Below, in pieces: positions 4,645-52,862 of a DNA stretch of 64,000 bases. The position numbers were made by a program, and so were the translations under genes. Below the pieces are notes generated by a model. That model was given only the letters and a program-made list of their open reading frames with translations. It made no database searches and was not told the origin of the DNA. Position 1 is the stretch's first letter; every line of letters starts with the position of its first letter. Origin of the DNA: an uncultured Trueperaceae bacterium (lineage in GTDB: Bacteria > Deinococcota > Deinococci > Deinococcales > Trueperaceae); NCBI GenBank assembly GCA_937873495.1, contig CALMXZ010000011.1, positions 186,001 to 250,000 of the forward strand, given 5' to 3'.

Positions 4645-6468
4645 TCAGCGCGGCGTGGTCGCACGCGGCCGCGCGGTGCTATATTGCTCTTCGCTTCGCC
4701 GTCGGCACCCCCGGCGCCACGTAGCCGATCCGCGCCCGTAGCTCAGTCGGATAGAGCGTTCGCCTCCGGAGCGAAAGGTCACAGGTTCGAATCCTGTCGG
4801 GCGCACCCAACGCACAAGGCTCGAACCTTGGCCCGAGGATTCAAGGGCTGGGGTTCGGGCCTTGTCGGCGTTCTCTGCCCAGGTGAGCGCGTCGGCGTTG
4901 ACCTCGGGGTCGAGCAGCATCTCGAAGGGCCGGTTGTTCTCGACGCGCAGTTCGTCGTCCTCCTCGATGTAGACCTTGGTGAAGAAGGCCTGGTTGCACA
5001 GGCGCCGGTTGGCGTCGTCGCAGCGGGCGTAGATGTCGGCGCAGTTCTCCAACAGGTTCAGGGCGTCGTCCAGGTGCGCGCGGGCGTCGGTGTACTCGCC
5101 GTGGTGGGCGTCGAGGCGGCGGTTCACCTGGTCGAGTTCTCCGGCGATGCGGTCTTGTTCCCGTTTGAGGACGGCGAGCGGGATCGCGTCGGCGTAGTGG
5201 GCCTGCATGAGCCGGTCTTGCTCGTGCTCCAGGCGGTCGCGGTTCGCGGTGAGCTGGGCGAGTTCGTCGGCTTCGGCGGACATCAGCCGGTCGAACTCGT
5301 GGTGCAGCATCCCGGCCAGAGCTTCGCGTCGGGCGGGGGTGAGTTGCACGCGCTGGTAGTAGTTCTCGATCAAGTGCTCGACGTCCTCGATGAGGATGGC
5401 CTGCCTCGTGCAGTCGGTCCGCTTGGAGTGCCGCCCTGAGCAGACGAAGTAGGGGTAGACGTTGCCGTGTCGGTTCTTCGCGTTTGACACGATGAGGCGG
5501 GACCCGCAGGCCCCGCAGTAGACGGTGCCTTTCAGGTAGTGGTCGTGCACCTGGGTTGCCTCGGATGCGCTCTTGTGCGCGGTGAGGACGGACTGCACCT
5601 GGTACCAGACCTCGGCCGGGACGAGCGGCTGGTGCGCACCCTTGTAGGCGACGCCGCGGTAGATCACGTCGCCCTTGTAGTACGGGTTCGTCAGCATTCG
5701 GTGTACCGAGGACACAGCGAGCGGTTTCGAGGGCCGCTTCGGGGTGGGAAGACTGACCAGCCCTCGCGACGTCAGCTCGTCGTGGATCTGGCTGACGGTC
5801 CAGTTCCCGGAGGCGTATGCCTTGTATGCCCACTCAATCAGCGGTGCCCGGTCGGGGTCGAGCTGCACCGTGCGAACTTCGCGGCCGAGCTCGTCGCGGG
5901 AACGGATGTTGAGGTAGCCGATCGGTGCCTTGCCGACCGTGCCGCCGGTGGCGGCTTTCTGCGTCATGCCCTTGATGACCTCGGTGGCGAGATTGCGGGA
6001 GTAGAACTCCGCGATCGTGGACATGATGCCGTGCAGCAGCATCCCGCTGGGGGTCTCGTCAATGTTCTCGGTCGCGGAGACGAGCATGACCCCGGCCTCC
6101 TGCAAGGCGAGGTGGATCGTTACGTCGTCGGCGCGGTTGCGGGCGAGCCGGTCGACCTTGTGGACGATGCAGTACGCGACACGGTTGCGCTTGACGTACT
6201 GGATCATCCGCATCAGCTCGGGCCGGTCGGCCTTGCGGGCGGACTCGCCCGCGTCGATGAACTCCTTCACGATGACCGCGCCGAGCTGTTCGGCCTTGCG
6301 GCGGTTGGCCTCGCGCTGGGCGGGAATGGAGAAGCCTTCATCGGTGCCGCCCTTCTCGGCTTGCTCCTTGGTGGAGACGCGCAGGTAGGACACCGCGAGT
6401 GCGGTGCCCTGGGGCGGTTCGATGAGACTGCGCACCGGGTCTGGAGTGCGCGCGGACGTGGTACTCAT
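4645..6468 (-). CDS. Large serine recombinase (integrase) whose 3' end crosses attL
   Basis: Integrates and excises the element at tRNA-Arg. The resolvase domain (about residues 25-170) has catalytic Ser32 in SYLRVSTKEQ and the HKVDRLARN motif. The recombinase domain follows (about 185-300), then a zinc ribbon (YCGACGSRL ... YFVCSG ... DC, about 317-355) and a charged coiled coil (about 375-470). Codon 555 falls on the att core. The remaining 52 codons (after LVRWV) are host sequence read antisense through tRNA-Arg, so the tail is not native. In the excised circle the frame would continue into the ORF at 52386-52859 instead. The ATG at 6468 is preceded by a structured leader. Confidence 0.93.
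   Translation of the reverse strand: MSTTSARTPDPVRSLIEPPQGTALAVSYLRVSTKEQAEKGGTDEGFSIPAQREANRRKAEQLGAVIVKEFIDAGESARKADRPELMRMIQYVKRNRVAYCIVHKVDRLARNRADDVTIHLALQEAGVMLVSATENIDETPSGMLLHGIMSTIAEFYSRNLATEVIKGMTQKAATGGTVGKAPIGYLNIRSRDELGREVRTVQLDPDRAPLIEWAYKAYASGNWTVSQIHDELTSRGLVSLPTPKRPSKPLAVSSVHRMLTNPYYKGDVIYRGVAYKGAHQPLVPAEVWYQVQSVLTAHKSASEATQVHDHYLKGTVYCGACGSRLIVSNAKNRHGNVYPYFVCSGRHSKRTDCTRQAILIEDVEHLIENYYQRVQLTPARREALAGMLHHEFDRLMSAEADELAQLTANRDRLEHEQDRLMQAHYADAIPLAVLKREQDRIAGELDQVNRRLDAHHGEYTDARAHLDDALNLLENCADIYARCDDANRRLCNQAFFTKVYIEEDDELRVENNRPFEMLLDPEVNADALTWAENADKARTPALESSGQGSSLVRWVRPTGFEPVTFRSGGERSIRLSYGRGSATWRRGCRRRSEEQYSTARPRATTPR
4732..4805 (+). tRNA. tRNA-Arg (anticodon CCG), insertion target of the element
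   Basis: All four arms fold: acceptor GCGCCCG/CGGGCGC, D-arm GCTCAGTCGGATAGAGC, anticodon stem TTCGC/GCGAA around a loop with CCG, and T-arm ACAGG-TTCGAAT-CCTGT. The discriminator is A4805. The next bases are CCC rather than CCA, because the inserted element begins here. Joining the left host sequence to base 52861 restores A-CCA, so the uninterrupted gene encoded its CCA end. After integration the terminal A must be supplied by tRNA nucleotidyltransferase following trimming. Confidence 0.97.
4803..4807. other. attL core of the integrated element
   Basis: The pentamer GCACC at the tRNA 3' end recurs at 52856-52860, preceded on both sides by GG and one variable base. Crossover within this core is predicted because swapping flanks restores both a complete tRNA 3' end with CCA and an uninterrupted recombinase reading frame. 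A very short shared core fits a large serine recombinase. Confidence 0.8.
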
Positions 6469-6477
6469 GGGGGCCTG

Positions 6478-6539
6478 CTCTCACGAAATCTCGGCCCTCG
6501 CGCTCGGGCTGAACGCCCGAGGGGTGCTGATCGTGAGAG
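6478..6539 (-). promoter_or_regulatory. Nested inverted repeats in the recombinase leader
   Basis: Immediately upstream of the recombinase ATG (6468), a 9-bp inverted repeat (CTCTCACGA 6478-6486 and TCGTGAGAG 6531-6539) encloses a perfect 7-bp hairpin (CTCGGGC 6503-6509, GCCCGAG 6515-6521, 5-nt loop). In the mRNA the outer arm nearest the start contains GAGAG, the likely ribosome-binding site, so folding could hide it. It could equally be a protein-binding dyad. Confidence 0.45.
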
Positions 6540-6650
6540 GAAGCCCGAAAGCTCTAGGACTAGGCCGGAACGGCCACGTAAACGTTGCCCGCCGGAGCGG
6601 GGTTTGGGACCACAACACCACGTCGACGCGAGGCTTGCTTGTGCTCGATT

Positions 6651-7453: not shown

Positions 7454-7465
7454 GGTCACCGCCGG

Positions 7466-7921: not shown

Positions 7922-7979
7922 CGGACTGTCCTCATTTCTGACATCGACGGGCGGCCCCACAGCCGGGGCCGCCCTTGTG

Positions 7980-9776
7980 TCAGGCAGGTGCGCCCGGCTC
8001 CTCCAGCGGACGGCGTTGCAGCAGCGCCTCGATGCCGGCCCGGTCGGCCCGCAGTTCCTTCGCATCCGGCCGGTCGAGCCAGGTCCGCATCCTCGTGACT
8101 ATGGGCGGCGCGGAGCGCAGCAGCACGAGCGCAGTCCCGAACGGCAACGTCCTGATCGTGTCGGGCGGCATGATCGGGACGCGCCGGATGGAGCGTTGCG
8201 CGGAGCGGGAGCCGTGGTCTCCGACCGTGGTGGAGTCGGTCACCTCGTCGCGCTCGCCGATGAGCGTGGTCAGGTCGTGCAGGTCGCGGCTGTTGGAAGC
8301 GCCGCCGAGGATGATCTTGACGATGGAGGCGTCCCAGATCGCGCCGGCGGCGTTCTCCGACCATTTCTCCCGCGCCTGAGCGAGGCTTTGGAGTACGGGC
8401 ATGGTCGTGATCCCGGTGCCGCCGCCTTCGGCCATGAGCGTGGGCAGTGACGGTAAGGGGGCGAGGTTGCCGACCTCATCGAGGGCGAGCAGCAAGGGCG
8501 GGTCGAGCCTCGCGCCGGGGCTTCCGGCGGCGATGCGGCGGGCGGCTTCCACGACGTCTTCCACGAACGCCGCCACCAACGCCGCGCTGTTGTTGGCGCC
8601 GGCGCCGGTCGCCAGCAGGTAGAGCGTTCCGCGGGCACGGAGAAAGGCTTCGGGGTCGAAGTTCTCGCCTTCGCGCGGCGACACGGCGTCGAGCACGCGC
8701 GGGTCCGCCAGGGCGGCGAGGGCGAGGGAGACGCCTTGCCAGATGGAGTCGCGGGTTCTCGGGTCGGAGTCGATCATCGCCTGTAGCGACTCCGCCCACC
8801 CGACAGCCGCTCGTGGGTTCGCTGTCAGGATCGCGACTGCGTCCGCGGCGGCGGATGGGTCGAGGGTCCACCGGAACAGTTCACCCGGTGGGCGACGGTC
8901 GAGGGCAGCGGCGTGGAGCAGGGCTTGGAGGGCGGTGCGGGTCTTGCCTTCCCAGAACCCGCCGCCTTCGACTCCGCCTGCGGACAGGCCGGTGCCGGCG
9001 GCGAGTCCGGTGGCGCGGATCATCGCGGTCAGCGGGTCCTCGCACCCGCGGATGGGTGACCATCTGAGGCCTGCGGGGATGCCTTCGGCGAGGTGCTGTG
9101 GGTCGAACACGGCGACCGGGCCGATGCGCTCGCGGGCGCGGAGAGTCGCGGTGAGGTTGTCCGGCCGGGTCGAGGTGGTGACGACTGCGCCGGGTGCGTC
9201 GAGGATGGTGTTGATGACGATGTGGGCGCCCTTCCCGGACCGGGGCGGGCCGATCAGCAGGATGCTGTCCTCCACCGATGCCCACACGCTCTTGCCGCGC
9301 GACTGGCCGATCCGGTAGCCGACGTCCTCCGGTGTCGGCTTGTGGAGCGAGGGTCGCAGGTGCCCGGCCCGGCGCAGCAGCGCGGTCTCGGAGGCGGCCT
9401 TGGTGACCTCGGTGCGGGTGGCGATACCGGGGATGCGGTAGGGGTCGTTCTTGACCTGTCGGCCGTGCTCGCGGAAGAACCGCCACCCCCAGCACCCTGC
9501 GCCAGCGGCGGCGAGGATGAGGACGGCGGCGGTGATCCAGTACGCCACGACGTTCAGACCGGGTGCGCCGAGCGCGGCCGCCGGGTCGCCGGGGTTGAGC
9601 AGCACGCCCAACCCGGCCTCGACTCCGCCGGCGGGTTGCCCGGTCCCGGTGATCCACGCGGCGACCGAGCCGGCGCCGCGGAGGATGGCGGCGAGGATCG
9701 CGGCGCCGATGAGGAGGCCGATGCCGAGGTTGCTCAGCTCGTCCCCGAGCGATCCCGTCGGCCTCGGGGTGGTCAT
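7980..9776 (-). CDS. VirD4/TraG-type coupling protein of the conjugation system
   Basis: A 598-aa P-loop ATPase that would link the relaxosome to the secretion channel. Two membrane segments lie near the N-terminus (about 17-42 and 75-97). Walker A is GPPRSGKG (about residues 176-183) and Walker B is PPLLLALDEVGN (about 415-426), followed by the conserved GGGTGITTMPVLQSL sensor region typical of TraG/TraD. It overlaps the upstream gene by four bases. The family identification is firm; which relaxase it serves is inferred from the element's single MobF relaxase. Confidence 0.93.
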   Translation of the reverse strand: MTTPRPTGSLGDELSNLGIGLLIGAAILAAILRGAGSVAAWITGTGQPAGGVEAGLGVLLNPGDPAAALGAPGLNVVAYWITAAVLILAAAGAGCWGWRFFREHGRQVKNDPYRIPGIATRTEVTKAASETALLRRAGHLRPSLHKPTPEDVGYRIGQSRGKSVWASVEDSILLIGPPRSGKGAHIVINTILDAPGAVVTTSTRPDNLTATLRARERIGPVAVFDPQHLAEGIPAGLRWSPIRGCEDPLTAMIRATGLAAGTGLSAGGVEGGGFWEGKTRTALQALLHAAALDRRPPGELFRWTLDPSAAADAVAILTANPRAAVGWAESLQAMIDSDPRTRDSIWQGVSLALAALADPRVLDAVSPREGENFDPEAFLRARGTLYLLATGAGANNSAALVAAFVEDVVEAARRIAAGSPGARLDPPLLLALDEVGNLAPLPSLPTLMAEGGGTGITTMPVLQSLAQAREKWSENAAGAIWDASIVKIILGGASNSRDLHDLTTLIGERDEVTDSTTVGDHGSRSAQRSIRRVPIMPPDTIRTLPFGTALVLLRSAPPIVTRMRTWLDRPDAKELRADRAGIEALLQRRPLEEPGAPA

Positions 9777-10333
9777 TCGGGGTGCCCGATCGTGAGCGTC
9801 CCGGAGACGCGGCCGAGCAGGATCACCTCTCGGGTCGGGCTCACGGCGAGCTGGTCGGCGGTGAGCAGGCCGCGCATCGCGCCGTCCGGGGCGGCATCGC
9901 CGTGGGCGATGACGACGGCGATCGCCACGTCCTCGCCCGGCACGAACCCCTCGCCGTGGAGCGCCACGAGTTCGGGCGGAGCACTCGCGACCGGTGGCTC
10001 AGGTGCGGGGGCGGGTTTTGGTTCGGTGCGGCGGCGTCTGGTCGGAGTGATGATGTCGGTGAACGTGCTTCCGTCCGCTTCGCGCACCTCGACCCGCACC
10101 GGCGAGCGGCGCTGTTCGGTGAGCTGGTCGAGGACGGCGGCGAAGTCCTCTCGTCGCCACGGAGGCGCGAACGGCTCCGGCTCGAACGGCACGCCGTCGA
10201 CGGTGACCGTCATGCGTCCGTCGTCGGTGATCGTGATGACCACGAGCGGGAGAACGACCGGCACAGCCTCGACCTCGTCACGGTGAACAGACGCGGGCAT
10301 GATCGTGCGCTTATAGCGGGGCCGGGCCATCAC
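9773..10333 (-). CDS. Conserved element protein between coupling protein and VirB4, unknown function
   Basis: A 186-aa protein without membrane segments. A beta-rich N-terminal half (VVLPLVVITITDDGRMTVTVDGVPF) is followed by a basic patch (PTRRRRTEPKP), a proline-rich linker and a second beta-rich half. It overlaps the VirB4-like gene upstream and the coupling-protein gene downstream by four bases each, so it belongs to the transfer operon. No family is recognised. A cytoplasmic accessory factor of the secretion apparatus is the natural guess, from position only. Confidence 0.6.
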   Translation of the reverse strand: MMARPRYKRTIMPASVHRDEVEAVPVVLPLVVITITDDGRMTVTVDGVPFEPEPFAPPWRREDFAAVLDQLTEQRRSPVRVEVREADGSTFTDIITPTRRRRTEPKPAPAPEPPVASAPPELVALHGEGFVPGEDVAIAVVIAHGDAAPDGAMRGLLTADQLAVSPTREVILLGRVSGTLTIGHPE

Positions 10334-11889
10334 GCCGCACCGCCCGCGGCGGGAACCGTCAGCGAGGCCGACGGTTCGTCATTCTCAACGGTGAACTTCC
10401 CGGTTTCTGCGATCATGCGGCTCGTGGTGTCGAAGGCGGCGAACTCGGCGGGGTGGAGTTGGTGCTGCACGACGAAGGAGCGGTCCTTGATGCGCCACAG
10501 CCCCTGCCCGGTCCCCAGGCCGGGAAGCAGCTTCTGCTCAGTGCCCGTGAGGCCGAGCGCTGTTGCGGTGGAGCCGAGCTGGTCGGCTTCCTGCCGGTAG
10601 ACGATCCTGGTCTCCGCGTTCGCCAGCAGCGACGATGCGAGGGCGCGCATGGCGGAGCCCTGGTCGCCGACGTTGTCGAGGTCGGAGAGCTTGTGGAAGA
10701 TCAGCATGTTCGCGATTCCGAAGTGCCGGGCGAGCCGCCACTGGGCGTCCATACGCCGCAGGAGGGACGGGTAGGCCATCAGGCGCCAGGCTTCGTCGTA
10801 GATCACCCAGCGTTGCCCGCCTGCCGGGTCGGACAGGGCCGACTCCATCCACGCCGACGAGCACGTCATCAGCACCGAGATCAAGGTGCTGTTCTCCGCG
10901 ACCCGGGACAGGTCGAGGGACACCATTGGCAGGGACGGGTCGAACCTGACCGTGGACGGGCCGTCGAACAGTCCTTGGAGGTCGCCCGCGACGAGTCGGC
11001 GCAGGGCGTGGCCGACGAGCCGACCGTCTTCCGCGAGCCGTCCATCCGCGTCGTCGGCCGAGGTTGGGGTAAGGATGCGGTCGACGACCATCGGCAGGAT
11101 CGGAACCTCCGCGCTCCGTACCGCGTCTTGGAGGGCGAGGTCGATCGCGGTGTGCTCCAACGGCGTCAGCGCCCGGTCCAGCACGGTCTCTGCGAGGGCG
11201 CCGATGAGGTCGCGGCGGCGGGAGGCGACCTGCATCGCCCACTCCGCATCTGACACCGCGGACGGCCTATGGCCCTCATCGAGAGGGTTGAGGCGGTTGG
11301 AGAGGCCGTGGCCGAGGATGATTGCGCGTCCACCGACGGCTTCGGCGACGGCGGTGTGCTCGCCCTTCGGGTCGCCGGGGACGTAGACGCGTCGTCCGAA
11401 CGGGAGCGAGCGCGTGTAGAGCGACTTTGCCAGGCTCGACTTGCCGGAGCCGACGATGCCGGCCAGGACGACGTTGGGGGCGGTGATGATCCCGCGCCGG
11501 TAGAGCACCCACGGGTCGTAGACGAACGACCCGCCGGAGTAGAGGTCCTGCCCGACGAAGATCCCCTCCGATCCGAGGCCGCCTTCGGCCAGGAACGGGT
11601 ACTGCCCAGCCAACGTCGCACTCGTGTCCTGGTGCTTGGGGAGACGGAACCGGCCCGGCGTGCGCAACGCCGCAGGCCCCGGCTCGCCAGCGGCGGGCAG
11701 GTAGGTCGTCGCGCGCCGCTCGGCCTGCTCCGCCTCCCACAGGGCCTTCGCCTCGGCCTTCCGTGCCTTGCGGGCGGTGGTCTCGATTCGGGTCGCAGCC
11801 TGCCGGCGGTCCTTACGGGCCCGGCGTCGTTCGCCTTCGGGGCCGACGAGCACGGCCGTGTGCAGGCGGCCCTCGTCCTGCGCGGTCAC
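10330..11889 (-). CDS. VirB4-like conjugation ATPase
   Basis: A 519-aa ATPase that would energise the type IV secretion channel. After a basic, Ala/Arg-rich N-terminal segment the core begins around residue 80. Walker A is GIVGSGKSS (about 144-152) and Walker B is QRWVIYDEAWRLM. The region RRMDAQWRLARHFGIANM and the ending RMIAETGKF also fit TraC/VirB4 homologues. The start is the GTG at 11889, whose GTGA overlaps the stop of the gene upstream; the open frame continues to 12444 but that extension is antisense to nothing recognisable and out of character. It works with the SCO6880-family protein, which resembles the missing N-terminal VirB4 part. Confidence 0.9.
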   Translation of the reverse strand: MTAQDEGRLHTAVLVGPEGERRRARKDRRQAATRIETTARKARKAEAKALWEAEQAERRATTYLPAAGEPGPAALRTPGRFRLPKHQDTSATLAGQYPFLAEGGLGSEGIFVGQDLYSGGSFVYDPWVLYRRGIITAPNVVLAGIVGSGKSSLAKSLYTRSLPFGRRVYVPGDPKGEHTAVAEAVGGRAIILGHGLSNRLNPLDEGHRPSAVSDAEWAMQVASRRRDLIGALAETVLDRALTPLEHTAIDLALQDAVRSAEVPILPMVVDRILTPTSADDADGRLAEDGRLVGHALRRLVAGDLQGLFDGPSTVRFDPSLPMVSLDLSRVAENSTLISVLMTCSSAWMESALSDPAGGQRWVIYDEAWRLMAYPSLLRRMDAQWRLARHFGIANMLIFHKLSDLDNVGDQGSAMRALASSLLANAETRIVYRQEADQLGSTATALGLTGTEQKLLPGLGTGQGLWRIKDRSFVVQHQLHPAEFAAFDTTSRMIAETGKFTVENDEPSASLTVPAAGGAA

Positions 11890-13079
11890 AGCGCGAGCCC
11901 CCGGCCCTGCGCCGTGGCGGCACCGGGGCGTCGAGTGAACCAGTCGCCCGCGCCGCGCTCGCGGTTCGCCGCCTGGGTGTTCGCGCGTGCAGGCTGGTGT
12001 GCGACGCGCGCCGACGCCGCGGTCGACGCGGGCGCGGGAATCGGGGTGTCGATGCCGAGGAGTGCCGGGTCGGGCAGGGCGCCGTGCTCGCGCAGTAGCG
12101 AGACGTGGCCGAGGAACGGGTTGTAGGTGAGGGTGTAGACGTCTCGGGTCGCTACCTTGTCGAGGGCACCGGTCGGGGGCTCGTCGTAGACGTAGCCGTT
12201 CTCGAGCGCTGTCTGTACGGTCTCCTCGCCGTAGTCGAACCCGGCCAGGTGCTCGATCGCCGCGTCCGTGCCCTCCCGGTCGATGAGGTCCAGCACCTCG
12301 TAGGCCTCGGAGCCTTGGAGGAACACGACGCTGATCCACCGCACGCCCGCCGCCTCCCCAACGGTGGGCGCAGGGCCCTGCGGGCCGCGGTCGGCCAGCT
12401 CGGTCAGGGCGTCGGAGTTCTGCCGGGCGACGTCGGCGGTCCACTCATCGAACGGCCCCTCATACGCCGTGCCGTTGTCGGTGGCGTGTTGGTGCGCATC
12501 GCCTGCTGCGGTCAGGTAGGCGGCGAGGTCACGCAGCGCCCGCTCCGGTGAGACAGGCGCGCCGGCCCCGGTAAACAGATCCCGCCCTTGGATGCTCTGC
12601 CCGCTGTCCCGGTGCTCGATGAGGTAGGCGTAGCGCTGGTGCTGGCCCAGCGGCTCGTCCGGCCACACCGTCAGCGTGAGCGTCCCGGCCTGCACGCTCG
12701 TACGCCCCGCCCCCGCGTCTGCGGGGTCGGGTGCGGGGTGCCAGGCGATACGCCCGGAGTGCTGGGAGGCGGCGTCGAGCCGCCAGGCCACGGAGTCCAG
12801 GAGTGTGCCGGCCTGGTGCAGCTCGTCCGCGGCCGCGAGGGCCGAGGTCGCGCCGGTGGCCTGGTTCCCGGCGTCGTCGTGCGCGCGGGCACGGGGAGCG
12901 ATATGGGCGGCGGCGAGCTGATCCAGTACCTGCCGCAGCGACCGGACTCCGGACAGCAGGTCACCGATCACTGGGTAGGTGTCGGCCGGGTCGGTGAACT
13001 GGCGGGTTGCGTGGGCCAGGCCCCGCAACGCGGCGGACGCCTCCGTGGCGTCCGCGACGGGGTTATCGAAGGTAGGCAT
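11886..13079 (-). CDS. Conserved conjugative-element protein, unknown function
   Basis: A 397-aa protein. The N-terminal third is helical and Ala-rich (SAALRGLAHATRQ, LRQVLDQLAAAH). The middle contains beta-type sequence (GTLTLTVWPDEPLGQHQRYAYL) and an Asp/Glu-rich section. The C-terminus is low-complexity and basic. No signal peptide or membrane span is visible. It sits between the SCO6880-family and VirB4-like genes and overlaps the latter by four bases, so it is part of the transfer operon. I cannot assign a domain. Confidence 0.65.
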   Translation of the reverse strand: MPTFDNPVADATEASAALRGLAHATRQFTDPADTYPVIGDLLSGVRSLRQVLDQLAAAHIAPRARAHDDAGNQATGATSALAAADELHQAGTLLDSVAWRLDAASQHSGRIAWHPAPDPADAGAGRTSVQAGTLTLTVWPDEPLGQHQRYAYLIEHRDSGQSIQGRDLFTGAGAPVSPERALRDLAAYLTAAGDAHQHATDNGTAYEGPFDEWTADVARQNSDALTELADRGPQGPAPTVGEAAGVRWISVVFLQGSEAYEVLDLIDREGTDAAIEHLAGFDYGEETVQTALENGYVYDEPPTGALDKVATRDVYTLTYNPFLGHVSLLREHGALPDPALLGIDTPIPAPASTAASARVAHQPARANTQAANRERGAGDWFTRRPGAATAQGRGLAL

Positions 13080-14598: not shown

Positions 14599-14604
14599 CG
14601 CAGG

Positions 14605-16119
14605 TCACCCCTTCCCGGTCGGCTTGGACGACGGCGGAGGTGGCGGGTCCGACCGGCGCCGAGGCGCGGGCGAGGACTCCGCCGAGCCGGTGGACGGCCC
14701 GGACGGCGGCGCCGAGGACGGAGCGGCCGGGGGCGGCGTCGACGGTGCGGGACGCTGCGGCGGGGTGCCTTGCGATGGTGGAACCAGCGGCGGGGATGCC
14801 TGCTCCGTGGCCGCGCCTGCCTGACTGTCGGCCGCTCCACCGACCGCATTGCCGGCCTTCGGGCCGGCGGTCGCCGCGCCCTTGACCACCGCACCGCCGA
14901 CGACGACCGCAGCACCCACAGGGCCGGCGGCTGCACCAGCACCCGCAGCGCCCGCTGTCCCGGCCCCGGCACCAGCGGCGGTGCCAGCTCCCGCTCCTGC
15001 CCCTGTCGAGGAAGCGGCGGCTCCTGTGCCCGCTGTGCCGGCTCCCGCACTGGTGGGCGCCGCCGACGAGGAGGTAGGCGGCGGTGTTGGACTACCGCCT
15101 CCTCCGCCACCGTTCGAGGGTGCGCTGCCGGAGTCGGTGCTGCCGTCGAGTACCTTCTTGGCCGTGTCAGCCTTCGGCGCAGACGGCACTGGGACAGGCC
15201 GGTTCAGCGCCGACTTCGCCTCCTGCTCCGACGACATCGCGTGGTACATGTCGAACCCGACGAAGGACAGGAACTTGTACGTGATGTACGGGGCGAACGC
15301 CGCGATGAACATCAGCGCGACGCCGGCGATCGGGTCGGAGATGGATGCCAGGTCCGCCTCGATGGGGGCGGAGACCTGGCCGATGGCGACGAGGAAGATC
15401 ACGACGAGGACGAGCTTGGAGAAGATGAGGGCGATGACGAAGGTCGCCCATTTGGCGAACCATCCCTTGGTCGCATCCCATGTCGCCCCGGCCAGGGCGA
15501 CCGGCCCGAACACGATGGCGACCAGCAGCAGGGCTTTGCGGATGAGCAGCGAGAACCACACGATCGCCGCCGCGCTGATAGCGAGTCCGGCGAGGAAGAT
15601 CGTCAGGATCGCGCCGACACCGGGAGCGGTGATGTTGATGGTGGCCAGGCCTGCGGCGAGGAGCCCGATCTGGGTCCCCATCCCTTCCATCGTGTTGCCG
15701 GTGGCCTGGACGATCCCGACCGCGAGCTGGTCGGTCACTTCCAGCAGCAACGCGGTCAGCGTGATGACCAGGAACGATCCGAGCACGCTCTTGGCGAGAC
15801 CGAGGGCGGCACGGTTGAGGGCGGTCGGGTCGCGGTGGATGAGCCCGGTGATGAGCTGCAAGCAGAAGAACACGAGCATGATGAAGACAGCGACGCCGAA
15901 CAGGACGTTGTAGACGCCGATGTACTCGGCGCTGGTGACGTCCACGAGGGTCGTGGTGTCGAAGACCCACCAGACCGCCTCGAACAGCCACGCGGCGGCA
16001 CCGGCCATCGCTTGGGCGAGCCAGTCGAACGGGGCGGCGATCAGGGAGGCGGTGCCTTCGCCCACGGCGTCGCAGACGGAGGAGATGACTGGGACATCGC
16101 AGACGCTCACCGCAGCCAC
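14605..16119 (-). CDS. TrbL/VirB6-like polytopic membrane protein of the transfer channel
   Basis: A 504-aa protein. Residues 1-290 contain about seven hydrophobic segments (for example VLFGVAVFIMLVFFCLQLI and LLLVAIVFGPVALAG), followed by a conserved FLSFVGFDMYHAMSSEQEAKSA element. The last 200 residues are low-complexity Ala/Gly/Pro/Ser (for example SAPPSGPSTGSAESSPAP) and probably cytoplasmic. This is the inner-membrane pore component of a type IV secretion system. It lies between the two DUF6112 genes and the SCO6880-family gene. Confidence 0.85.
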   Translation of the reverse strand: MAAVSVCDVPVISSVCDAVGEGTASLIAAPFDWLAQAMAGAAAWLFEAVWWVFDTTTLVDVTSAEYIGVYNVLFGVAVFIMLVFFCLQLITGLIHRDPTALNRAALGLAKSVLGSFLVITLTALLLEVTDQLAVGIVQATGNTMEGMGTQIGLLAAGLATINITAPGVGAILTIFLAGLAISAAAIVWFSLLIRKALLLVAIVFGPVALAGATWDATKGWFAKWATFVIALIFSKLVLVVIFLVAIGQVSAPIEADLASISDPIAGVALMFIAAFAPYITYKFLSFVGFDMYHAMSSEQEAKSALNRPVPVPSAPKADTAKKVLDGSTDSGSAPSNGGGGGGSPTPPPTSSSAAPTSAGAGTAGTGAAASSTGAGAGAGTAAGAGAGTAGAAGAGAAAGPVGAAVVVGGAVVKGAATAGPKAGNAVGGAADSQAGAATEQASPPLVPPSQGTPPQRPAPSTPPPAAPSSAPPSGPSTGSAESSPAPRRRSDPPPPPSSKPTGKG

Positions 16120-20280: not shown

Positions 20281-20327
20281 GATGTGTTCCTCCCAGACGT
20301 CGGTTCTCGCTCCGACCATCATTCTCA

Positions 20328-20349
20328 ACCTTCCACTACACTGGAAGGT
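20328..20349. promoter_or_regulatory. MerR-type operator-promoter between merA and merR
   Basis: A perfect 8-bp dyad, ACCTTCCA-6-TGGAAGGT, lies between the divergent genes. On the minus strand TTGACC overlaps one arm and a -10-like GAGAAT follows about 19-20 bp later. That over-long spacer is the hallmark of promoters activated by MerR through DNA untwisting. It is probably bidirectional, with merR repressing itself. Confidence 0.8.
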
Positions 20350-20373
20350 CAAGCGAGGGCGGAGGAGGACGTC

Positions 20374-20763
20374 ATGCGTATCGGGGAGCTGGCCCAAGTG
20401 GCGGGGGCGACCGCCAAAACCCTGCGGGTCTACGAAGACCAAGGAGTTCTACTACCTGCCGCGCGCACCGCAACGGGCTACCGCCATTATGGCCCGGAGA
20501 TTCTGGCCCGGCTCGACTTCATCCATCGCGGCCAGGCAGCAGGACTGACTCTTGCGCAAATCAGACAGATCCTCCAGATCCGCGACAGCGGGACGGCCCC
20601 GTGTGACCACGTTCGGGAACTGCTGGATATACGCCTGGCCGAAGTCGATGAGCAGATTGCCGAACTCGGCCGGCTGCGTGAGACCATCGGTCAGCTACGG
20701 ACGGCGGCTGAGCACGTTCAGCCCGAGACGTGTCAGGCTGGCGCGGTCTGCGCCTACCTTTAA
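20374..20763 (+). CDS. merR: MerR-family mercury-responsive regulator
   Basis: A 129-aa protein. The N-terminal winged HTH (MRIGELAQVAGATAKTLRVY) is followed by a long dimerisation helix and three cysteines: Cys77 in GTAPCDHV, Cys120 and Cys126 in the C-terminal CQAGAVC. Three metal-binding cysteines in this arrangement correspond to the mercury site of MerR. The divergent merA and the intervening operator support the assignment. Another thiophilic metal as inducer is possible but less likely. Confidence 0.92.
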   Translation: MRIGELAQVAGATAKTLRVYEDQGVLLPAARTATGYRHYGPEILARLDFIHRGQAAGLTLAQIRQILQIRDSGTAPCDHVRELLDIRLAEVDEQIAELGRLRETIGQLRTAAEHVQPETCQAGAVCAYL

Positions 20764-34374: not shown

Positions 34375-34480
34375 AAGGTCCCTCCGGTGGAACTCGCTCG
34401 TGGTGGTCGAAGACCTCGAGCAAACCCGGAGAGACCCCCCTAACGCCGGGACCGACACGGCCAATCCCACGACTCAAGAA

Positions 34481-39263: not shown

Positions 39264-39346
39264 TGACCGCGCCGCGCCCGGCCTCTGACGGAGCCTTCGT
39301 CTCCGCCTCCCTCAGAGCCACCACGCCTCTTGCAGATCGAGGTTGA

Positions 39347-39384
39347 GCCCGCCTTCGGCGGGCCGCTGCTCACCTCGTGAGCAG
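39347..39384. other. Two adjacent perfect hairpins, candidate oriT/nic region
   Basis: GCCCGCC-TTC-GGCGGGC (39347-39363) and CTGCTCAC-CTC-GTGAGCAG (39366-39384) sit back to back, 18 bp before the relaxase ATG at 39403. MobF relaxases recognise an inverted repeat next to nic, often beside their own gene, so this is the best oriT candidate in the element. It could also be an attenuator for the relaxase mRNA. Confidence 0.45.
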
Positions 39385-39402
39385 GCAGAGAGGGCGGGCC
39401 GG

Positions 39403-42400
39403 ATGACGGTTTCGATGCGCGTGATGTCGGCGGGTGACGGGTATAAGTACCTGTTGCGCACTGTCGCGGCCGGCGACGGCGACCGCTCGCTCTCGACTCC
39501 GTTGACGCGCTACTACAACGCCGAGGGCACCCCGCCCGGTCGCTGGCTCGGTGCCGGGGTCGCCACACTCGGCGGCGGGCGGATCAGCGTGGGTGATCAG
39601 GTCTCCGAAGCCCAGCTCCAGCTGCTGGTCGGCATGGGTCGAGACCCGATCACCGGTGAACCGCTGGGCCGCGCGTACCCCGAATACCGAACCGTGGCCG
39701 AGCGGATCGAGGCACGTACCAGTGCGCTTGATCCCGCACTCGGGCCGGCGTCACGCGCGGAGGCGGTCGCGGCCATCGACACGGAGGAGGCCGGGCGCGG
39801 GACGCGGCGGGCGGTTGCGGGGTTCGACTTCACGTTCTCGATCCCGAAGTCCGCCAGCGTGCTCTGGGCGGTCGCGGACGCGGGGACGCAGGCGTTGATC
39901 GCGGACGCGCATCACGCTGCGGTTGCGGAGGTGGTTGCGTTCATGGAGCGGGAGGTTGCAGCCACCCGCACCGGCGCAACCGACCGCGACGGCGCGGTTG
40001 CACAGGTCGACGTCGCAGGTCTGGTCGCCACGGCGTTCGATCACTACGACAGCCGGGCGGGCGACCCGCACCTGCACACGCATGTCGTCATCAGCAACAA
40101 GGTGCAGACCGTCCTCGATGGCAAATGGCGGTCGCTGGATGGGCGGCCGATGCACGCCGCCGTGGTCGCCCTCTCCGAGCTGCACGAGGCGGTGTTCGCT
40201 GACCACCTCACTCGCTCGTTTGGCGTCTCGTGGGAGGCGCGCGACATGGGCCGCGACCGCAACCCCGCGTGGGCGATCGCCGCGGTGCCCGAGGCGATGG
40301 TGAAGGAGTTCTCCACCCGTGCCCGGCACATTGATGCCGAGACCGACCGCCTCATCGGCCAGTACGTCGACGCGCATGGGCGGCGGCCGTCGCCGGCGAC
40401 GATCATGAAGCTCCGCGCCCAGGCCACCCTCTCGACCCGGCCGGAGAAGGAAGTCCGGTCGCTGGCTGACCTCACCGCCTCCTGGCGGGAACGGGCCGGG
40501 CAGGTGCTCGGGTCGGATACGACCTCGTGGGCGCGCGGCGTGACGGCAAACAAGGAGCCGTTGCTGCTGCGCGCGGACGACGTGCCGTTGGATGTGATCG
40601 ACTCGCTCGGGGCAGACGTTGTGGCTGCGGTCGGTGAGAAGCGATCCACCTGGCATCGCTGGAACCTCACTGCCGAGGCCGCGCGGCAGACGATGGCCTA
40701 CCGGTTCGCGTCGACAGAGGATCGCGAAGCTATCGTCGGCCTGGTCGTAGACGCCGCCGAAGCCGCTTCGCTGCGCCTGACCCCGCCCGAGCTCGCATCC
40801 AGCCCGGCCGCGTTCCGCCGACCGGACGGCACGAGCGTGTTCCGGCCGAAGCACTCCGCGCTGTTCTCCTCCGAGGAGCTGCTGGCCGCCGAAGACCGCC
40901 TCCTCGAACGCGCCCGCACCACCACCGCACCGACCGTGCCGCTGACCACCGTCGAACGGGTTACGAAGCGGCCCGACAGCAAGGGCCGGATGCTCGGTGA
41001 CGACCAGGCGGCCGCACTGACGAAGATCGCGCTCTCGGGCCGGGTGGTCGATGTGCTGGTCGGCCCTGCTGGGGCGGGGAAGACCACCGCGATGTCAGCG
41101 TTGCGGCGGGCGTGGGAACGCGAGCACGGACGTGGCAGCGTGGTCGGGCTTGCGCCGTCCGCGGTCGCCGCGCAGGTCCTGGCCGATGACCTCGGCATCC
41201 AGACCGAGAACACGGCCAAGTGGCTCGACACTCACGACCGCGCCGGCGAGACGTTCCGCAAGGGTCAGCTCGTCATCGTCGACGAGGCATCGCTGGCGGG
41301 CACGCTCTCCCTTGACCGCATCACCGCCTTGGCGGCGGAGGCCGGGGCGAAGGTGCTGCTGGTCGGGGACCACGCCCAGCTTCAGTCCGTCACCGCCGGT
41401 GGCGCGTTCTCCCTCCTCGTCCACGACCGTGACGACGCCCCGGAGCTGGTCGACGTGCACCGGTTCGTCCACCCGTGGGAGAAGACCGCGTCCCTCGCGC
41501 TGCGGCATGGGCGCACCGATGTCATCGACACCTACACCGAACACGGTCGCATCCGAGGTGGTGAGACGGAGGAGATGATCGACGTCGCCTACACCGCCTG
41601 GCGCAACGACACACTCGCCGGGCGAGCCAGTGTGCTCGTGACCGCCTCGAACGAGTCCGTCCAGGCGCTCAACAACCGGGCACGCGCTGATCTGATCCTC
41701 GACGGCACCGTGAACGCCCGCCGTGAGGTCGAACTGCACGACGGAATGAGGGCTGCGGTCGGGGATACGGTCATCACTCGCCGCAACGACCGCCGCCTCC
41801 GCGCGGGACGGTCCTGGGTCCGCAACGGCGATAGGTGGACGGTCACCGAGGTCCGTGACGACGGCGCTCTCACCCTCCGCCGCGCAGGGCGCACGTGGGG
41901 CGCCTCGGTCGTGGTCCCGGCCGAGTACGCGGCCGAACACCTCGATCTCGGTTACGCCGTGACGTCATACCGGGCGCAGGGCATCACCGTGGACTCCTCG
42001 CACGTCCTGGCGGATGCGTCGATGACCAGAGAGACGTTCTATGTCGCCATGACGAGGGGGCGCGAGCAGAACATCGCCTACGTCGCCGTCGACAAGCCCG
42101 ACCCCGCCCACGACGGCCCTCGCCCCGGCGACAACACCGAGGCGACAGCCCGGTCCGTGTTGTTCGGGGTGCTGCAGCACGTCGGTGCCGAGCTGTCGGC
42201 GCACGAGACGATCACTGCGGAGCAGGACACCTGGGCCTCGATCGCGCAGCTTACCGCCGAGTACGAGACCCTGGCCGCCGCCGCCCAACACGACCGCTGG
42301 GCCGCGCTCGTCCGCTCGTCTGGGCTCAGCGACGACGACGCCGAGGACGCGATCGCCTCACCCGCATTCGGAGCGCTGACTGCCGAGCTCCGTCGGGCCG

Positions 42401-42954
42401 AGGCCAACCAGCACGACGTCGAGACCCTGCTGCCGCGCCTCGTGCGAGCACGCGGGTTCGGGGACGCCGACGACATCGCCGCGGTCCTGCACTACCGTCT
42501 TGCCCGCGCGACCGCCAGGCCAGCGGGAGCCGGGCGTGCACGCAGAACACCACGTCTCATCGTGGGCCTCATCCCCGAAGCCACCGGCATCATGCCATCC
42601 GAGATGCGGCAAGCGCTGACCGAGCGACGCGACCTCATCGAAGCCCGGGCCGATGCTCTCCTCGACACCGCACTCACCGAGAAACACGAGTGGATCACGA
42701 AACTCGGAACCCCACCCAAGACTGCACGAGCGGCCCAGGCATGGCGGAACGCCGCGCGCACCATCGCCGCCTACCGCGACCGCTACGGCATCACCGGACC
42801 CGCACCCCTCGGAGCACCCGCCGAAGCCGAGACGCAGAAGATCGACGTCGCCCGCGCCCGTGCTGCGCTTGACCGAACCCGCTCGCTCGAAAGAGAACCG
42901 AACAGCGCACGTCAATCGCCTGCTACTACTAGGCCGGTCCGACGCTCCTTGTAG
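39403..42954 (+). CDS. MobF (TrwC/TraA-type) relaxase-helicase
   Basis: A 1,183-aa protein that would nick oriT, stay bound to the 5' end and unwind the plasmid strand. The relaxase domain has the tandem tyrosines in TRYYNAEG (Tyr37/38) and the three-histidine metal motif in GDPHLHTHVVISN (about 220-227). The RecD-like helicase has Walker A VGPAGAGKTT (about 553-560), Walker B LVIVDEASLAG (about 625) and the final motif in YAVTSYRAQGITVDSSHV. The C-terminal 250 residues are helical. The ATG at 39403 is chosen over longer frames because relaxase homology starts there. Confidence 0.94.
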   Translation: MTVSMRVMSAGDGYKYLLRTVAAGDGDRSLSTPLTRYYNAEGTPPGRWLGAGVATLGGGRISVGDQVSEAQLQLLVGMGRDPITGEPLGRAYPEYRTVAERIEARTSALDPALGPASRAEAVAAIDTEEAGRGTRRAVAGFDFTFSIPKSASVLWAVADAGTQALIADAHHAAVAEVVAFMEREVAATRTGATDRDGAVAQVDVAGLVATAFDHYDSRAGDPHLHTHVVISNKVQTVLDGKWRSLDGRPMHAAVVALSELHEAVFADHLTRSFGVSWEARDMGRDRNPAWAIAAVPEAMVKEFSTRARHIDAETDRLIGQYVDAHGRRPSPATIMKLRAQATLSTRPEKEVRSLADLTASWRERAGQVLGSDTTSWARGVTANKEPLLLRADDVPLDVIDSLGADVVAAVGEKRSTWHRWNLTAEAARQTMAYRFASTEDREAIVGLVVDAAEAASLRLTPPELASSPAAFRRPDGTSVFRPKHSALFSSEELLAAEDRLLERARTTTAPTVPLTTVERVTKRPDSKGRMLGDDQAAALTKIALSGRVVDVLVGPAGAGKTTAMSALRRAWEREHGRGSVVGLAPSAVAAQVLADDLGIQTENTAKWLDTHDRAGETFRKGQLVIVDEASLAGTLSLDRITALAAEAGAKVLLVGDHAQLQSVTAGGAFSLLVHDRDDAPELVDVHRFVHPWEKTASLALRHGRTDVIDTYTEHGRIRGGETEEMIDVAYTAWRNDTLAGRASVLVTASNESVQALNNRARADLILDGTVNARREVELHDGMRAAVGDTVITRRNDRRLRAGRSWVRNGDRWTVTEVRDDGALTLRRAGRTWGASVVVPAEYAAEHLDLGYAVTSYRAQGITVDSSHVLADASMTRETFYVAMTRGREQNIAYVAVDKPDPAHDGPRPGDNTEATARSVLFGVLQHVGAELSAHETITAEQDTWASIAQLTAEYETLAAAAQHDRWAALVRSSGLSDDDAEDAIASPAFGALTAELRRAEANQHDVETLLPRLVRARGFGDADDIAAVLHYRLARATARPAGAGRARRTPRLIVGLIPEATGIMPSEMRQALTERRDLIEARADALLDTALTEKHEWITKLGTPPKTARAAQAWRNAARTIAAYRDRYGITGPAPLGAPAEAETQKIDVARARAALDRTRSLEREPNSARQSPATTRPVRRSL

Positions 42955-48462: not shown

Positions 48463-48549
48463 CTGTTATGCCGTGCTCGCGGTTATGCCGATGATGCTCG
48501 GGCGGTCCTGGTCAGCGGCGGTGGGCGGGGCGCGGTTGTCGGCATAATC
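48463..48549 (+). repeat. RIT left inverted repeat
   Basis: 87 bp, 85 identical to the inverted right repeat. It starts CTGTTATGCC and ends GGCATAATC. Internal TTATGCCG/CGGCATAA motifs occur in both orientations and are likely recombinase-binding arms. It is translated at the end of the disrupted membrane-protein frame. Confidence 0.9.
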
Positions 48550-48602
48550 GTGTGATCCTGATCGGCTGGTCTTCTCAACTTGAGGAGACAGGAGAGCAGT
48601 TC

Positions 48603-49829: not shown

Positions 49830-50761
49830 TCGCCTGGGAAGCGCACGTCGATGACTACTTGCGGCTGCGCCGCCAGCTCGGATTCACCCTGGTCTGGGAC
49901 GAGCACCTCCTCGGACAGTTCACGACGCACCTGAACGCCGCCGGGGCCAGGCTCCTGACGACGACGGCGATGATCGACTGGGCCGGTCTGCCTCGCCCCG
50001 ACGGCGGGGCCGGAGCATCACGCGCGGCAGTGAGGATGAGGGCGGTGCGCTCGTTCGCCGCCTACATGCACGCCCTCGACCCAGCCCACGAGGTCCCGCC
50101 CGCGGCGGTGTTCTCGCACCAGACGCGACGGACCACGCCCTACATCTACACGCCCGGCGAGATCACCGGTCTGCTGGAAGCGGCTGGCCGGCTGCGGCGA
50201 TACGAGCGTTCGCGGATCTTCCCGGTCGTGTTCGGGCTCCTCGCGGCGACGGGCATGAGAGTCGGGGAACTCCTCGCGCTCGATGCCGACGAGGTCGACC
50301 TGGACGCCGGGATCATCACGGTCAGCCGCGGCAAGTCCCGCGACCCCCGGCTCGTCCCCGTCCATGCCACGACAGCGGCGACGCTCGCCGAGTATGCCGC
50401 CCGGCGCGCCGATCGCACGGCGCAGTCCGCGGCGTTCTTCATTGATCACCGCGGCAGGCGGCTGTCTCGCTGCAACACGCAGTATGCGTTCGAGCGGGCC
50501 CGCGAGGCCGCTGGCCTGACCGCGGGCGGGGCCAGGCCGCGGATGCACGATCTGCGGCACACGTTCGCGGTCACGACGCTGCTGGGCTGGTATCGCGAGG
50601 GGGCGGACGTCGCGGGCCTGCTGCCGAGGCTGTCGACCTACCTCGGCCACAGCAACCCGGCCAACACCTACTGGTATCTCACCGCCGTCCCGGAGCTGCT
50701 CGCCCACGCCGCCCGCATGCTCAACATCGCACAGCAGACGACGCGGGAGGCGCGCACATGA
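49826..50761 (+). CDS. ritB: RIT tyrosine recombinase B
   Basis: A 311-aa protein. The catalytic region shows GLLAATGMRVGELLALD (Arg I), MHDLRHTFAVTTLL (His-x-x-Arg), YLGHSNPANTYWYLT with the second histidine and the nucleophile tyrosine. The core-binding domain is at residues 1-105. The length is typical. It overlaps ritA and ritC by four bases each. Confidence 0.92.
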   Translation: MIAWEAHVDDYLRLRRQLGFTLVWDEHLLGQFTTHLNAAGARLLTTTAMIDWAGLPRPDGGAGASRAAVRMRAVRSFAAYMHALDPAHEVPPAAVFSHQTRRTTPYIYTPGEITGLLEAAGRLRRYERSRIFPVVFGLLAATGMRVGELLALDADEVDLDAGIITVSRGKSRDPRLVPVHATTAATLAEYAARRADRTAQSAAFFIDHRGRRLSRCNTQYAFERAREAAGLTAGGARPRMHDLRHTFAVTTLLGWYREGADVAGLLPRLSTYLGHSNPANTYWYLTAVPELLAHAARMLNIAQQTTREART

Positions 50762-51750
50762 CCGCGTTCGCTCCGCTGCTGCAGGCGTTCTTCACCGACC
50801 GGCTCATCACTCAACGCCACGCCAGCGCGAACACAATCGCCGCCTACCGCGACACGTTCAGGCTCCTGCTCGCCTACCTTCACGAGCACACCGGGACGGC
50901 ACCTGCGGGCCTGGACATCGGCGATCTCGACGCGACCCGAATCGGCGGGTTCCTCAGTCATCTCGAACACGAGCGGGGCAACAGTCCCCGCACCCGCAAC
51001 GCGAGGCTCGCAGCGATCCACTCACTGTTCTCCTACGCCGCACTGCGGCATCCAGAGCACGCCGACACCATCGCCCGGGTCCTCGCGATCCCCGCCGCGA
51101 GAATCCAGCGCAACCTCGTCACCTGGCTCACCGACGCCGAGACCACCGCGCTGCTGGACGCCTGCGACCAGACCACCCGCACCGGAAGACGCGACCACGC
51201 GATGTTCGCCCTCGCGATCCAGACCGGGCTGCGTGTCAGCGAGCTGACCGGGCTGAACCTCGCCGACATCCGCACCGGGACCGGCGCGCACGTCCACTGC
51301 CTCGGCAAGGGCCGTAAGGAACGCGCCACCCCGCTGCTGCCCGACACCATCGCGATCATGAACGCCTGGATCACCGAACGCGCCACCCCCGGCACGGAGC
51401 CGCTGTTCGCGACGACCACAGGCCGGCGCCTGAGCCGCGACGCGGTCGAAGCCAGGCTCCGCCACACCACCGCGGGAGCGGCCAAGTCCTGCCCGTCACT
51501 GACGGGCAAGAACGTCACCGTCCACACGCTGCGTCACACCGCAGCGATGCGGCTGCTGCACGCGGGCGTCGACGCGACCGTGATCGCGCTCTGGCTCGGG
51601 CACGAGAACGTCGCCACGACCAACATCTACATCCACGCCGACATGACCATCAAGGAGCAAGCGATCGCGAAGACCACACCGGTCGGCACCAGCCCCAGCC
51701 CGCGCTACCAGCCCAGCGACACGCTCCTGGCGTTCCTCGACCGGCTCTGA
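50758..51750 (+). CDS. ritC: RIT tyrosine recombinase C
   Basis: A 330-aa protein. An N-terminal SAM-like domain (LLQAFFTDRLITQRHASANT) is followed by the catalytic set: QTGLRVSELTGLNL (Arg), VHTLRHTAAMRLLHAG (His-x-x-Arg), WLGHENVATTNIYIHAD with the tyrosine. The stop codon lies at the inner edge of the right inverted repeat. Complete. Confidence 0.92.
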   Translation: MTAFAPLLQAFFTDRLITQRHASANTIAAYRDTFRLLLAYLHEHTGTAPAGLDIGDLDATRIGGFLSHLEHERGNSPRTRNARLAAIHSLFSYAALRHPEHADTIARVLAIPAARIQRNLVTWLTDAETTALLDACDQTTRTGRRDHAMFALAIQTGLRVSELTGLNLADIRTGTGAHVHCLGKGRKERATPLLPDTIAIMNAWITERATPGTEPLFATTTGRRLSRDAVEARLRHTTAGAAKSCPSLTGKNVTVHTLRHTAAMRLLHAGVDATVIALWLGHENVATTNIYIHADMTIKEQAIAKTTPVGTSPSPRYQPSDTLLAFLDRL

Positions 51751-51835
51751 TTATGCCGACAACCGCAGCCCGCCCACCGCCGCTGACCAGGACCGCCCGA
51801 GCATCATCGGCATAACCGCGAGCACGGCATAACAG
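51749..51835 (-). repeat. RIT right inverted repeat
   Basis: Inverted copy of 48463-48549 with two mismatches. Just outside (51840-51859) is a palindrome, CTATGCCGA-TG-TCGGCATAG, built from the same TATGCCG motif. It may be part of the true element end, making the two ends asymmetric. Confidence 0.9.
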
Positions 51836-51859
51836 ATGCTATGCCGATGTCGGCATAGA

Positions 51860-52006
51860 GTCTGGAATGCGCTCAAGTTCCTCATCATGGGCCTGGTCAG
51901 TGTCATCTTGCTCGTCCGCGCCCGCGTCCAGGAGGCCGTCGAGCGTCGCCGCCCGCCGCATGAACGAGGCACAGTCCCTCAAGTACCCGATGGCGAGTGT
52001 GGCGTG
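51860..52006 (+). pseudogene. Small membrane protein, C-terminal part beyond the RIT element
   Basis: Continues the gene cut at 48462: VWNALKFLIMGLVSVILLVR ARVQEAVERRR, a membrane helix and basic tail. The frame does not stop before the next start codon. The adjacent frame contains MNEAQSLKYPMASVA followed by a TGA that overlaps the next gene's ATG (TGATG), so the native end may have been in that frame, with another small change between. Confidence 0.7.
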
Positions 52007-52396
52007 ATGGGCGCCGTGATCTACACCCGCAGCGCACGCCCGAACTGGGCAACCCACGCTCACCAGCGGGCCGCCTGCCAATGCCTGGCCGCCGAGCTCG
52101 GCTACGAGGTCAGCGGCGAGTTCCACGACAACGGCCGGACACGACCCGCGCTCGACCAGGCCCTCGCCACCATCCGCGACGGGCAGGCATCGGCGCTCAT
52201 CGTCGCGGACCTCTACCGACTCAGCCGACCGTCTACCGAGTTCGCCCGCATCATCGAGGCGCTGGACGAGGCCGACGTGCCCCTCTACGTCGTCGGGCAA
52301 GGCCGCGTGAGCCTTCCCGCGACTCCCGAGCTCGGCATCATGCTGGCGATCGCCGAGTACGAGGCCAAGCACTCCGAGGAGGACTTCACTCTGTAA
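52007..52396 (+). CDS. Stand-alone resolvase-like domain, catalytic serine not at the usual position
   Basis: A 129-aa protein covering only the serine-recombinase N-terminal domain: MGAVIYTRSARPN, then ALIVADLYRLSRPSTEFARI and LGIMLAIAEYEAKHSEED. In the family the nucleophile is the Ser of Tyr-x-Arg-x-Ser; here that position is Ala10, with a serine one residue earlier (Ser9). The DxxRLSR motif is kept. No recombinase DNA-binding domain follows. It could modulate the large recombinase at the other end of the element, or be a decayed resolvase. The ATG couples to an upstream TGA. Confidence 0.75.
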   Translation: MGAVIYTRSARPNWATHAHQRAACQCLAAELGYEVSGEFHDNGRTRPALDQALATIRDGQASALIVADLYRLSRPSTEFARIIEALDEADVPLYVVGQGRVSLPATPELGIMLAIAEYEAKHSEEDFTL

Positions 52397-52862
52397 CCGC
52401 CACCCGACGTCCCCGAGGGCGGATGGTCGCACCTGCTGCGGCCACCGCCCTCTTCACTGCCCCCTGACTCACCCCGAAATGCAGACCAACCTCCATCAAG
52501 GTCATCCCGCCCTCGTAGAGCCTCACAGCCTCGCACGTGTGCTCCTCAGCCAGCCCTCGCACGCGCATCGGGACGGAACGGCGGACGAGGTGCGCGGCCA
52601 CCGTTCGGTGGTAGACGCCGAACCGCTCACCGAGCTGCGCTAGCGTCATGCCCTGCTCGTACAGCGCCACCAGCTCATCAACCTCGGCGGCGCTCAGAGA
52701 GGTTTGAGTCTTCCCAACTGACCGCACCACACGACCCCGCGAGTCGGTCACCGAGGGTTCGGATGGCCGTTCGCTACGCTCGTAGGCACCCCGAGACAGG
52801 CGAGAAGCCACGGTTTTCAGGGCCGGGCCAGGGTTCTCAAACTCTCTACGGAGGTGCACCAC
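52386..52862 (-). CDS. Double helix-turn-helix ORF, in-frame continuation of the recombinase across att
   Basis: Two similar HTH units, LYEQGMTLAQLGERFGVYHR and LYEGGMTLMEVGLHFGVSQG, occupy residues about 70-150, each followed by a basic segment. The frame starts inside the att core: codon GTG at 52857-52859 matches recombinase codon 555 at 4804-4806. In a circular element the recombinase would run straight into this sequence, giving about 711 aa. In the integrated state host DNA happens to place AAGGA six bases before a GTG at 52862, so a free 158-aa DNA-binding protein might be made. It overlaps the convergent resolvase-like gene by 11 bp. Confidence 0.8.
   Translation of the reverse strand: MVHLRREFENPGPALKTVASRLSRGAYERSERPSEPSVTDSRGRVVRSVGKTQTSLSAAEVDELVALYEQGMTLAQLGERFGVYHRTVAAHLVRRSVPMRVRGLAEEHTCEAVRLYEGGMTLMEVGLHFGVSQGAVKRAVAAAGATIRPRGRRVAVTE
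52856..52860. other. attR core of the integrated element
   Basis: GCACC, identical to 4803-4807. The host sequence ACCAG that follows supplies the A of the tRNA CCA end and further downstream DNA when the element is removed. Confidence 0.8.

Follow-up and report, generated by a model that had tools for sequence, protein, structure and literature searches.

Results

The window, by which we mean the whole 64,000-nucleotide stretch of DNA analysed, carries an element of about 48.05 kb (4808..52860) at the 3′ end of a tRNA-Arg(CCG) gene (4732..4807, plus strand), the identification of this gene as the integration target resting on ARAGORN, on the empty sites of related genomes and on the motif offsets described below. 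The bounds of the element and its 5-bp core could be set because two congeners (G004/L003 and G003/L004) keep an uninterrupted tRNA-Arg site. This intact empty site reads GGGCGCACC followed by ACCAGACG, or in both congeners tRNA...GGGCGCACCACCAGACG when written from the tRNA gene onward, and its flanks are 90% (left) and 87.5% (right) identical to those of the window. Comparison of attL and attR with the empty sites places the core GCACC (GGTGC in the orientation of the recombinase) at 4803..4807 in attL and at 52856..52860 in attR. A copy in Tessaracoccus caeni has the same termini at another tRNA gene.

Judged by its gene content, the element is an integrative and conjugative element (ICE), with an integrase, defined termini, a relaxase, a coupling protein and a VirB4-type ATPase, the last of these below its curated cut-off. 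The relaxase/helicase is of the MobF (TrwC) type (39343..42954, plus strand; Pfam 307 bits, NCBIfam NF041492 above cut-off), the type IV coupling protein (TraG/TraD; 7980..9776, minus strand) was recognised by Pfam, and the VirB4-like conjugal transfer ATPase (10330..12444, minus strand) matched NCBIfam NF045971 under its cut-off. A weak candidate for a TrbL/VirB6-like conjugation protein lies at 14605..16119 on the minus strand (Pfam PF04610, E 3e-4, under cut-off), and further genes encode an SSB, a Prim-Pol, a ParB, an ArdC-type protein and an M23 peptidase. No phage structural family was detected by Pfam in the 30 element ORFs scanned, conjugation genes being present instead, and the element is probably not a phage. 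Close to attR, a small catalytic domain of the resolvase type, lacking a domain for DNA binding (52007..52396, plus strand; Pfam, tblastn), is convergent with the tail described below. It had been entertained as a candidate directionality factor, but was dropped since by tblastn it is kept in the closest relatives only, with weak matches in two others.

The integrase is encoded on the minus strand by an ORF of 607 amino acids that runs from 6468 to 4645 and passes through the 3′ end of the tRNA-Arg gene. Its codons 1-555 (4804..6468) belong to the element and contain Resolvase (25-176), Recombinase (205-295) and Zn ribbon (312-371) domains, all three above the Pfam cut-offs, followed by a coiled coil and the helices of the C-terminal region. 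AlphaFold modelled the coiled coil of the homologue L155, a fused form treated below, as long helices at 399-424 and 430-473, and the best Foldseek matches were complexes of large serine recombinases (LSRs). The domain set, the predicted coiled coil, the attachment core and the motif register together identify the enzyme as an LSR. The integrated frame ends, as had been predicted, in host-derived sequence: according to the translation and the tRNA call, 52 codons and a stop (4645..4803, minus strand) are read from antisense tRNA-Arg and then from host DNA upstream of that tRNA.

At the opposite end of the element an ORF runs from 52862 to 52386, also on the minus strand, and its second codon (GTG, 52859-52857) consists of the same core bases as LSR codon 555 (GTG, 4806-4804). 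When the element ends are joined, an open frame of 711 amino acids results, ...GSSLVRWV-HLRREFENPGPALKT..., which agrees with the length of about 711 residues expected for the circular form. The shared core bases in the same phase, together with the congener empty sites, thus bear out the original prediction that the LSR gene is interrupted by its own attachment site; integration, as read from these junctions, parts the recombinase body from a tail (52386..52860, minus strand) of 156 residues beyond the core that contains two predicted tri-helical helix-turn-helix (HTH) units.

The geometry of the two half-sites is that of an LSR. A GAAC motif (in LSR orientation) lies on the tRNA side 15 bp from the centre in 17 of the 18 pairs scored, and in the single exception, L041, the script had picked the wrong centre and the distance was 15 bp by hand. 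On the tail side the motif lies 20 bp from the centre in all 19 scored. In the window the former is the T-arm GGTTC at 4784-4788, 15 bp from the crossover centre, and the latter, the attP half-site, is the GGTTC at 52832-52836, 20 bp from the centre and within the first ~10 tail codons. LSR attP sites carry the motif for the Zn domain 5 bp farther out than attB sites, and the offsets of 15 and 20 bp are, in sequence terms, this attB/attP register. Since the tail-side motif sits 5 bp farther out, as in attP, the first tail codons serve as protein and attP at once.

The tail matched the Pfam families Sigma70_r4 (in two stretches), HTH_7 and HTH_23, and its two HTH units were modelled by AlphaFold at a pLDDT of ~90. 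A PDB search with the tail gave no significant match, and Foldseek had none under E 1e-3, its weak matches being bipartite HTH folds (Tc3 transposase, Pax). The pooled dN/dS of the tail in clade A was 0.20, with 0.18 for the HTH part and 0.26 for the stretch past the attP half-site (columns 9-49); over all 39 tails, a set selected to have open frames of 140 codons or more, it was 0.39. We also looked for signs that the stranded tail is a gene with a start of its own. Shine-Dalgarno-like (SD-like) motifs precede it in 3 of 30 attR junctions against a background of 0.09, and none was present at the internal ATG of the stranded tails (0/30), so that ribosome-binding motifs are not enriched at stranded tails. 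An in-frame ATG lies at most 20 codons upstream in 9 of the 30 junctions, and some orphan tails could therefore be translated. Because the tail is under protein-level constraint but has ribosome-binding motifs only at the background rate, it is best read as the C-terminus of the LSR itself. In the L155 model the LSR body is already complete where the disordered linker (535-551) with the attachment point begins, and for this reason the tail-less form may be fully active.

The arrangement recurs across the family, for which 80 LSR loci were collected from bacterial genomes of Actinomycetota. An antisense tRNA adjoins the LSR end in 90 of 107 loci examined, a count in which a genome reached by two routes may enter twice, and the 13 anticodons belong to tRNAs for Ala, Lys, Val, Leu, Arg, His, Met and Pro. 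The frame enters the antisense tRNA in the same codon phase in 80 of the 90. The tail was found in 37 of 39 searched genomes with the LSR and, within the family of T. caeni, in 35 of the 98 genomes sampled; complete genomes yielded more pairs of tail and LSR on one strand, ~28-70 kb apart. For 16 attL/attR pairs with an identifiable core, the window included, the ends could be joined. A junction that breaks the frame was looked for and found in none (0/16): all 16 gave open circle frames of 708-721 amino acids, with a core of 5-9 bp in LSR codon phase 0. Both ends lie on one contig, recognised by its length, in the same orientation in 14 of these pairs, and on different contigs of one genome in L036/L125 and L037/L126. 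In a 17th pair, L063/L142, the script found no core, and two others were excluded as attL/attR pairs, L050/L153 because its tail is fused to another LSR and L047/L134 likewise. The open frame is beyond chance on these joined sequences; the in-frame junction was probably inherited from a single ancestor, however, and the pairs are therefore not independent events.

It had also been proposed that intact homologues of about 700 residues ending in the double HTH be sought in unintegrated or plasmid forms. Such homologues do exist: continuous LSR-tail frames were found in L155 (713 amino acids from the chosen start), L156 (721), L157 (699) and L158 (719), with LSR parts 50-84% and tails 38-70% identical to those of the window. 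Further fused frames are L072, whose HTH part is frameshifted, L134/L161, cut upstream, L193/L217, of 773 codons on a 3.2-Mb contig, and L186, of 685 codons. No free form was found: the contig of L155 had no end overlap that would indicate circularity, searches of viral contigs (viral_contigs), phages and plasmids gave no free form of the tail and no isolated phage with it, and in the plasmid collection the HTH part had a single match, weak and partial. Fused copies lie ~33 kb (G122), 94 kb (G124) and 76 kb (G185) from an LSR that adjoins the tRNA and is oriented alike, although a second tail for the proposed stack in G185 was not found. The fused frames thus apparently represent mostly stacked copies in chromosomal arrays, and the long form therefore need not be confined to the circle.

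Bodies and tails have been exchanged, apparently near the attachment core, because LSRs that are nearly identical bear divergent tails: L055 and L065 share 95.5-98% LSR identity with L048, L053, L054, L056, L064, L069, L071 and L177, but just 55-57% identity in the tail.

Copies nearly identical to the element of the window occur at tRNA-Leu genes in two Propionibacteriaceae. The T. caeni copy matches the window at 99.8% identity across 11.7 kb of the LSR end and at 99.92-100% across 6.3 kb of the tail end; in G216, at tRNA-Leu(taa), the LSR is 99.94% identical and 1.0 kb of the tail end 100%. Among 111 genomes of the same class as the host of the window, its own genome alone had an LSR match at E 1e-40. 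That three hosts carry nearly the same element, at tRNA-Arg or tRNA-Leu, points to recent transfer. In the PDB the Ffh protein of the window's host comes nearest to entry 2ffh, from Thermus aquaticus, which makes Deinococcota the probable phylum of this host; with Propionibacteriaceae on the other side, we infer that the element probably passed between phyla.

Discussion

The explanation that best accounts for the whole of these observations, and which we consider probable, is an ICE with attP inside its LSR gene, such that integration splits off the tail and circularisation restores the long form. The sequence shows that attP lies in the codons that link the complete LSR body to the double-HTH tail, and that after integration at the tRNA 3′ end the body continues into antisense tRNA and the tail is stranded without a conserved start. 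In a new recipient the circle would make the long form, which would perform the attP x attB reaction. Integration would stop synthesis of the long form, leaving the short form and an orphan tail; to excise a single copy, the short form would act together with a directionality factor, and the long form would be restored. The tail would be joined to the body only before integration or in stacked copies. It probably acts on the integration step, through extra DNA contacts or by influencing which site or synapse is chosen, and/or on expression of the LSR gene itself. Going by its title, a study of SprA by Abe et al. in 2021 (doi 10.1111/mmi.14654, listed among the references of PMC11530663) lends credibility to a directional effect of the C-terminus, and it is plausible that the tail of the present LSR sets the direction of recombination.

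Because attL would keep the tRNA half-site, a newcomer could insert beside a resident. It would do so between the resident LSR and the tRNA, and the resident LSR would take the newcomer's tail. Stacking of this kind would explain both why fused copies lie 33-94 kb away from an LSR on the tRNA side and why LSRs that are nearly identical have different tails. A wider proposal is that bacterial self-splitting serine integrases form a widespread class that works as a domain switch at the level of DNA, with integration by the long form, a tail-less form that is either silent or active in excision, and stacking at one tRNA that re-tails residents and shuffles tails between elements; to this we give slightly less than an even chance.

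The main rival, which we regard as unlikely, is that loss of the tail inactivates the LSR, so that integration is self-limiting and excision needs full-length LSR supplied in trans or by a re-tailed stack, an idea put forward for the suicidal integrases of Archaea. The position of attP within the gene would fit such a suicidal enzyme, as would the several genomes with more than one copy of the family, and LSRs that are nearly the same but differ in their tails recall the chimeric enzymes of Archaea (PMC8371274). In the archaeal case, however, the catalytic part is separated, whereas the modelled body of the present LSR, with catalytic domain, Zn ribbon and coiled coil, is complete before the attachment linker. 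Moreover, 83 of 85 tabulated LSR loci have no internal stop, and the same ICE recently entered several hosts. That the long LSR-HTH protein made by the circle represses its own promoter, with integration lifting the repression, is quite unlikely in our estimate; the HTH units resemble general DNA-binding folds, but the data do not favour regulation over a role in recombination.

It is very unlikely that the HTH ORF is a regulatory gene in its own right that starts at the core GTG, the fusion in the circle being a by-product of compact packing. The core GTG could serve as a start codon in 35 of 39 tails, tail length is almost constant, and the window has AAGGAAG just upstream, by happenstance. 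Across the 30 attR junctions, though, SD-like motifs before the core GTG do not exceed background, no fused or joined copy has a stop between LSR and tail, and in the tRNA-His clade the core codons are GGG TGC or GGG TCC rather than GTG. Hardly credible at all is an open junction that arose by chance, or a tail that is non-functional DNA retained only as attP. The first ~10 tail codons are indeed constrained as DNA, but the constraint at the protein level spans the whole tail past the half-site in clade A, and this together with the open circle frames led us to reject the chance reading.

Returning to the attP-in-gene ICE, its LSR shares domain order, Foldseek matches, a short attachment core and a motif register that differs by 5 bp from attB to attP with LSRs of the Bxb1, phiC31, A118 and SPbeta type, yet we know of no LSR of that type with attP in its own coding sequence or with a domain swap on integration. 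In mycobacteriophages with integration-dependent immunity, attP lies in the repressor gene. There too recombination at the attachment site alters the C-terminus of a protein, that protein being the repressor and here the recombinase itself. The closer parallel is with the suicidal integrases of Archaea (SSV1, pTN3, pT26-2), which likewise have the attachment site inside the integrase gene and tRNA targets, and whose gene is likewise parted on integration, with chimeric exchange of the two parts (PMC8371274). Those enzymes are tyrosine recombinases of the SSV type and lose the connection to their catalytic part, whereas the LSR of the window is a bacterial serine version of a self-disrupting recombinase, in which the whole catalytic body stays on one side and the add-on HTH tail alone is lost or changed. 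Self-disrupting recombinases have been stated to be found exclusively in Archaea (PMC8371274), a claim that the split LSR contradicts. The ICEs of Actinobacteria whose serine integrases act at tRNA genes (PMC3218068) share the setting, the hosts and the tRNA targets, and the terms searched in that paper led to no passage on a split integrase. A bacterial serine case of a self-splitting integrase was not found in the open-licence literature, so novelty is unproven.

The control of direction is a central question for serine integrases, which serve as genome-engineering tools, and here nature appears to provide matched long and short forms of one LSR as products of its own reaction, in a family whose target tRNA genes span at least 13 anticodons. 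The split layout also suggests a route for the exchange of domains between integrases. It is easily missed, because gene prediction would report the body and the tail as genes with no connection to each other.

Transfer of the element and trimming of its recombinase

The ends of the integrative and conjugative element (ICE; window 4808-52860), compared with loci L036, L173, L179 and L207, are nearly the same in one probable Deinococcota host and two Propionibacteriaceae genomes; the ICE was transferred recently, apparently across phyla. In the clade of large serine recombinases (LSRs) found at tRNA-His (L080-L115), many copies have an LSR frame that ends immediately at the att core, GGG TGA, so that the LSR is cleanly trimmed by integration, and LRSTFGN-type tails are located at the far end.

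Other recombinases and cargo

Three tandem tyrosine recombinase genes of the recombinase-in-trio type lie at 48552-51750. Because comparison of ICE copies found the stretch matching about 48471-51861 to be missing from the Tessaracoccus caeni copy, these ~3.4 kb look like a later insertion into the ICE. A lone resolvase-type catalytic domain (52007-52396), convergent with the LSR tail, has the sequence YTRSARPNW, the position of its catalytic serine being apparently shifted; T. caeni and a third genome, G216, carry this ORF in identical form, and matches in other genomes are weak. The ICE also contains a Mu/IS21-type transposase (32800-34470) and a further tyrosine recombinase (22814-23944). 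The gene for MerA, mercury(II) reductase (18850-20442), whose score exceeds the NCBIfam cut-off, is likely to be mercury-resistance cargo, and an SmvA/LfrA/QacA-like MFS efflux transporter (36079-37602) scores under all specific cut-offs listed.
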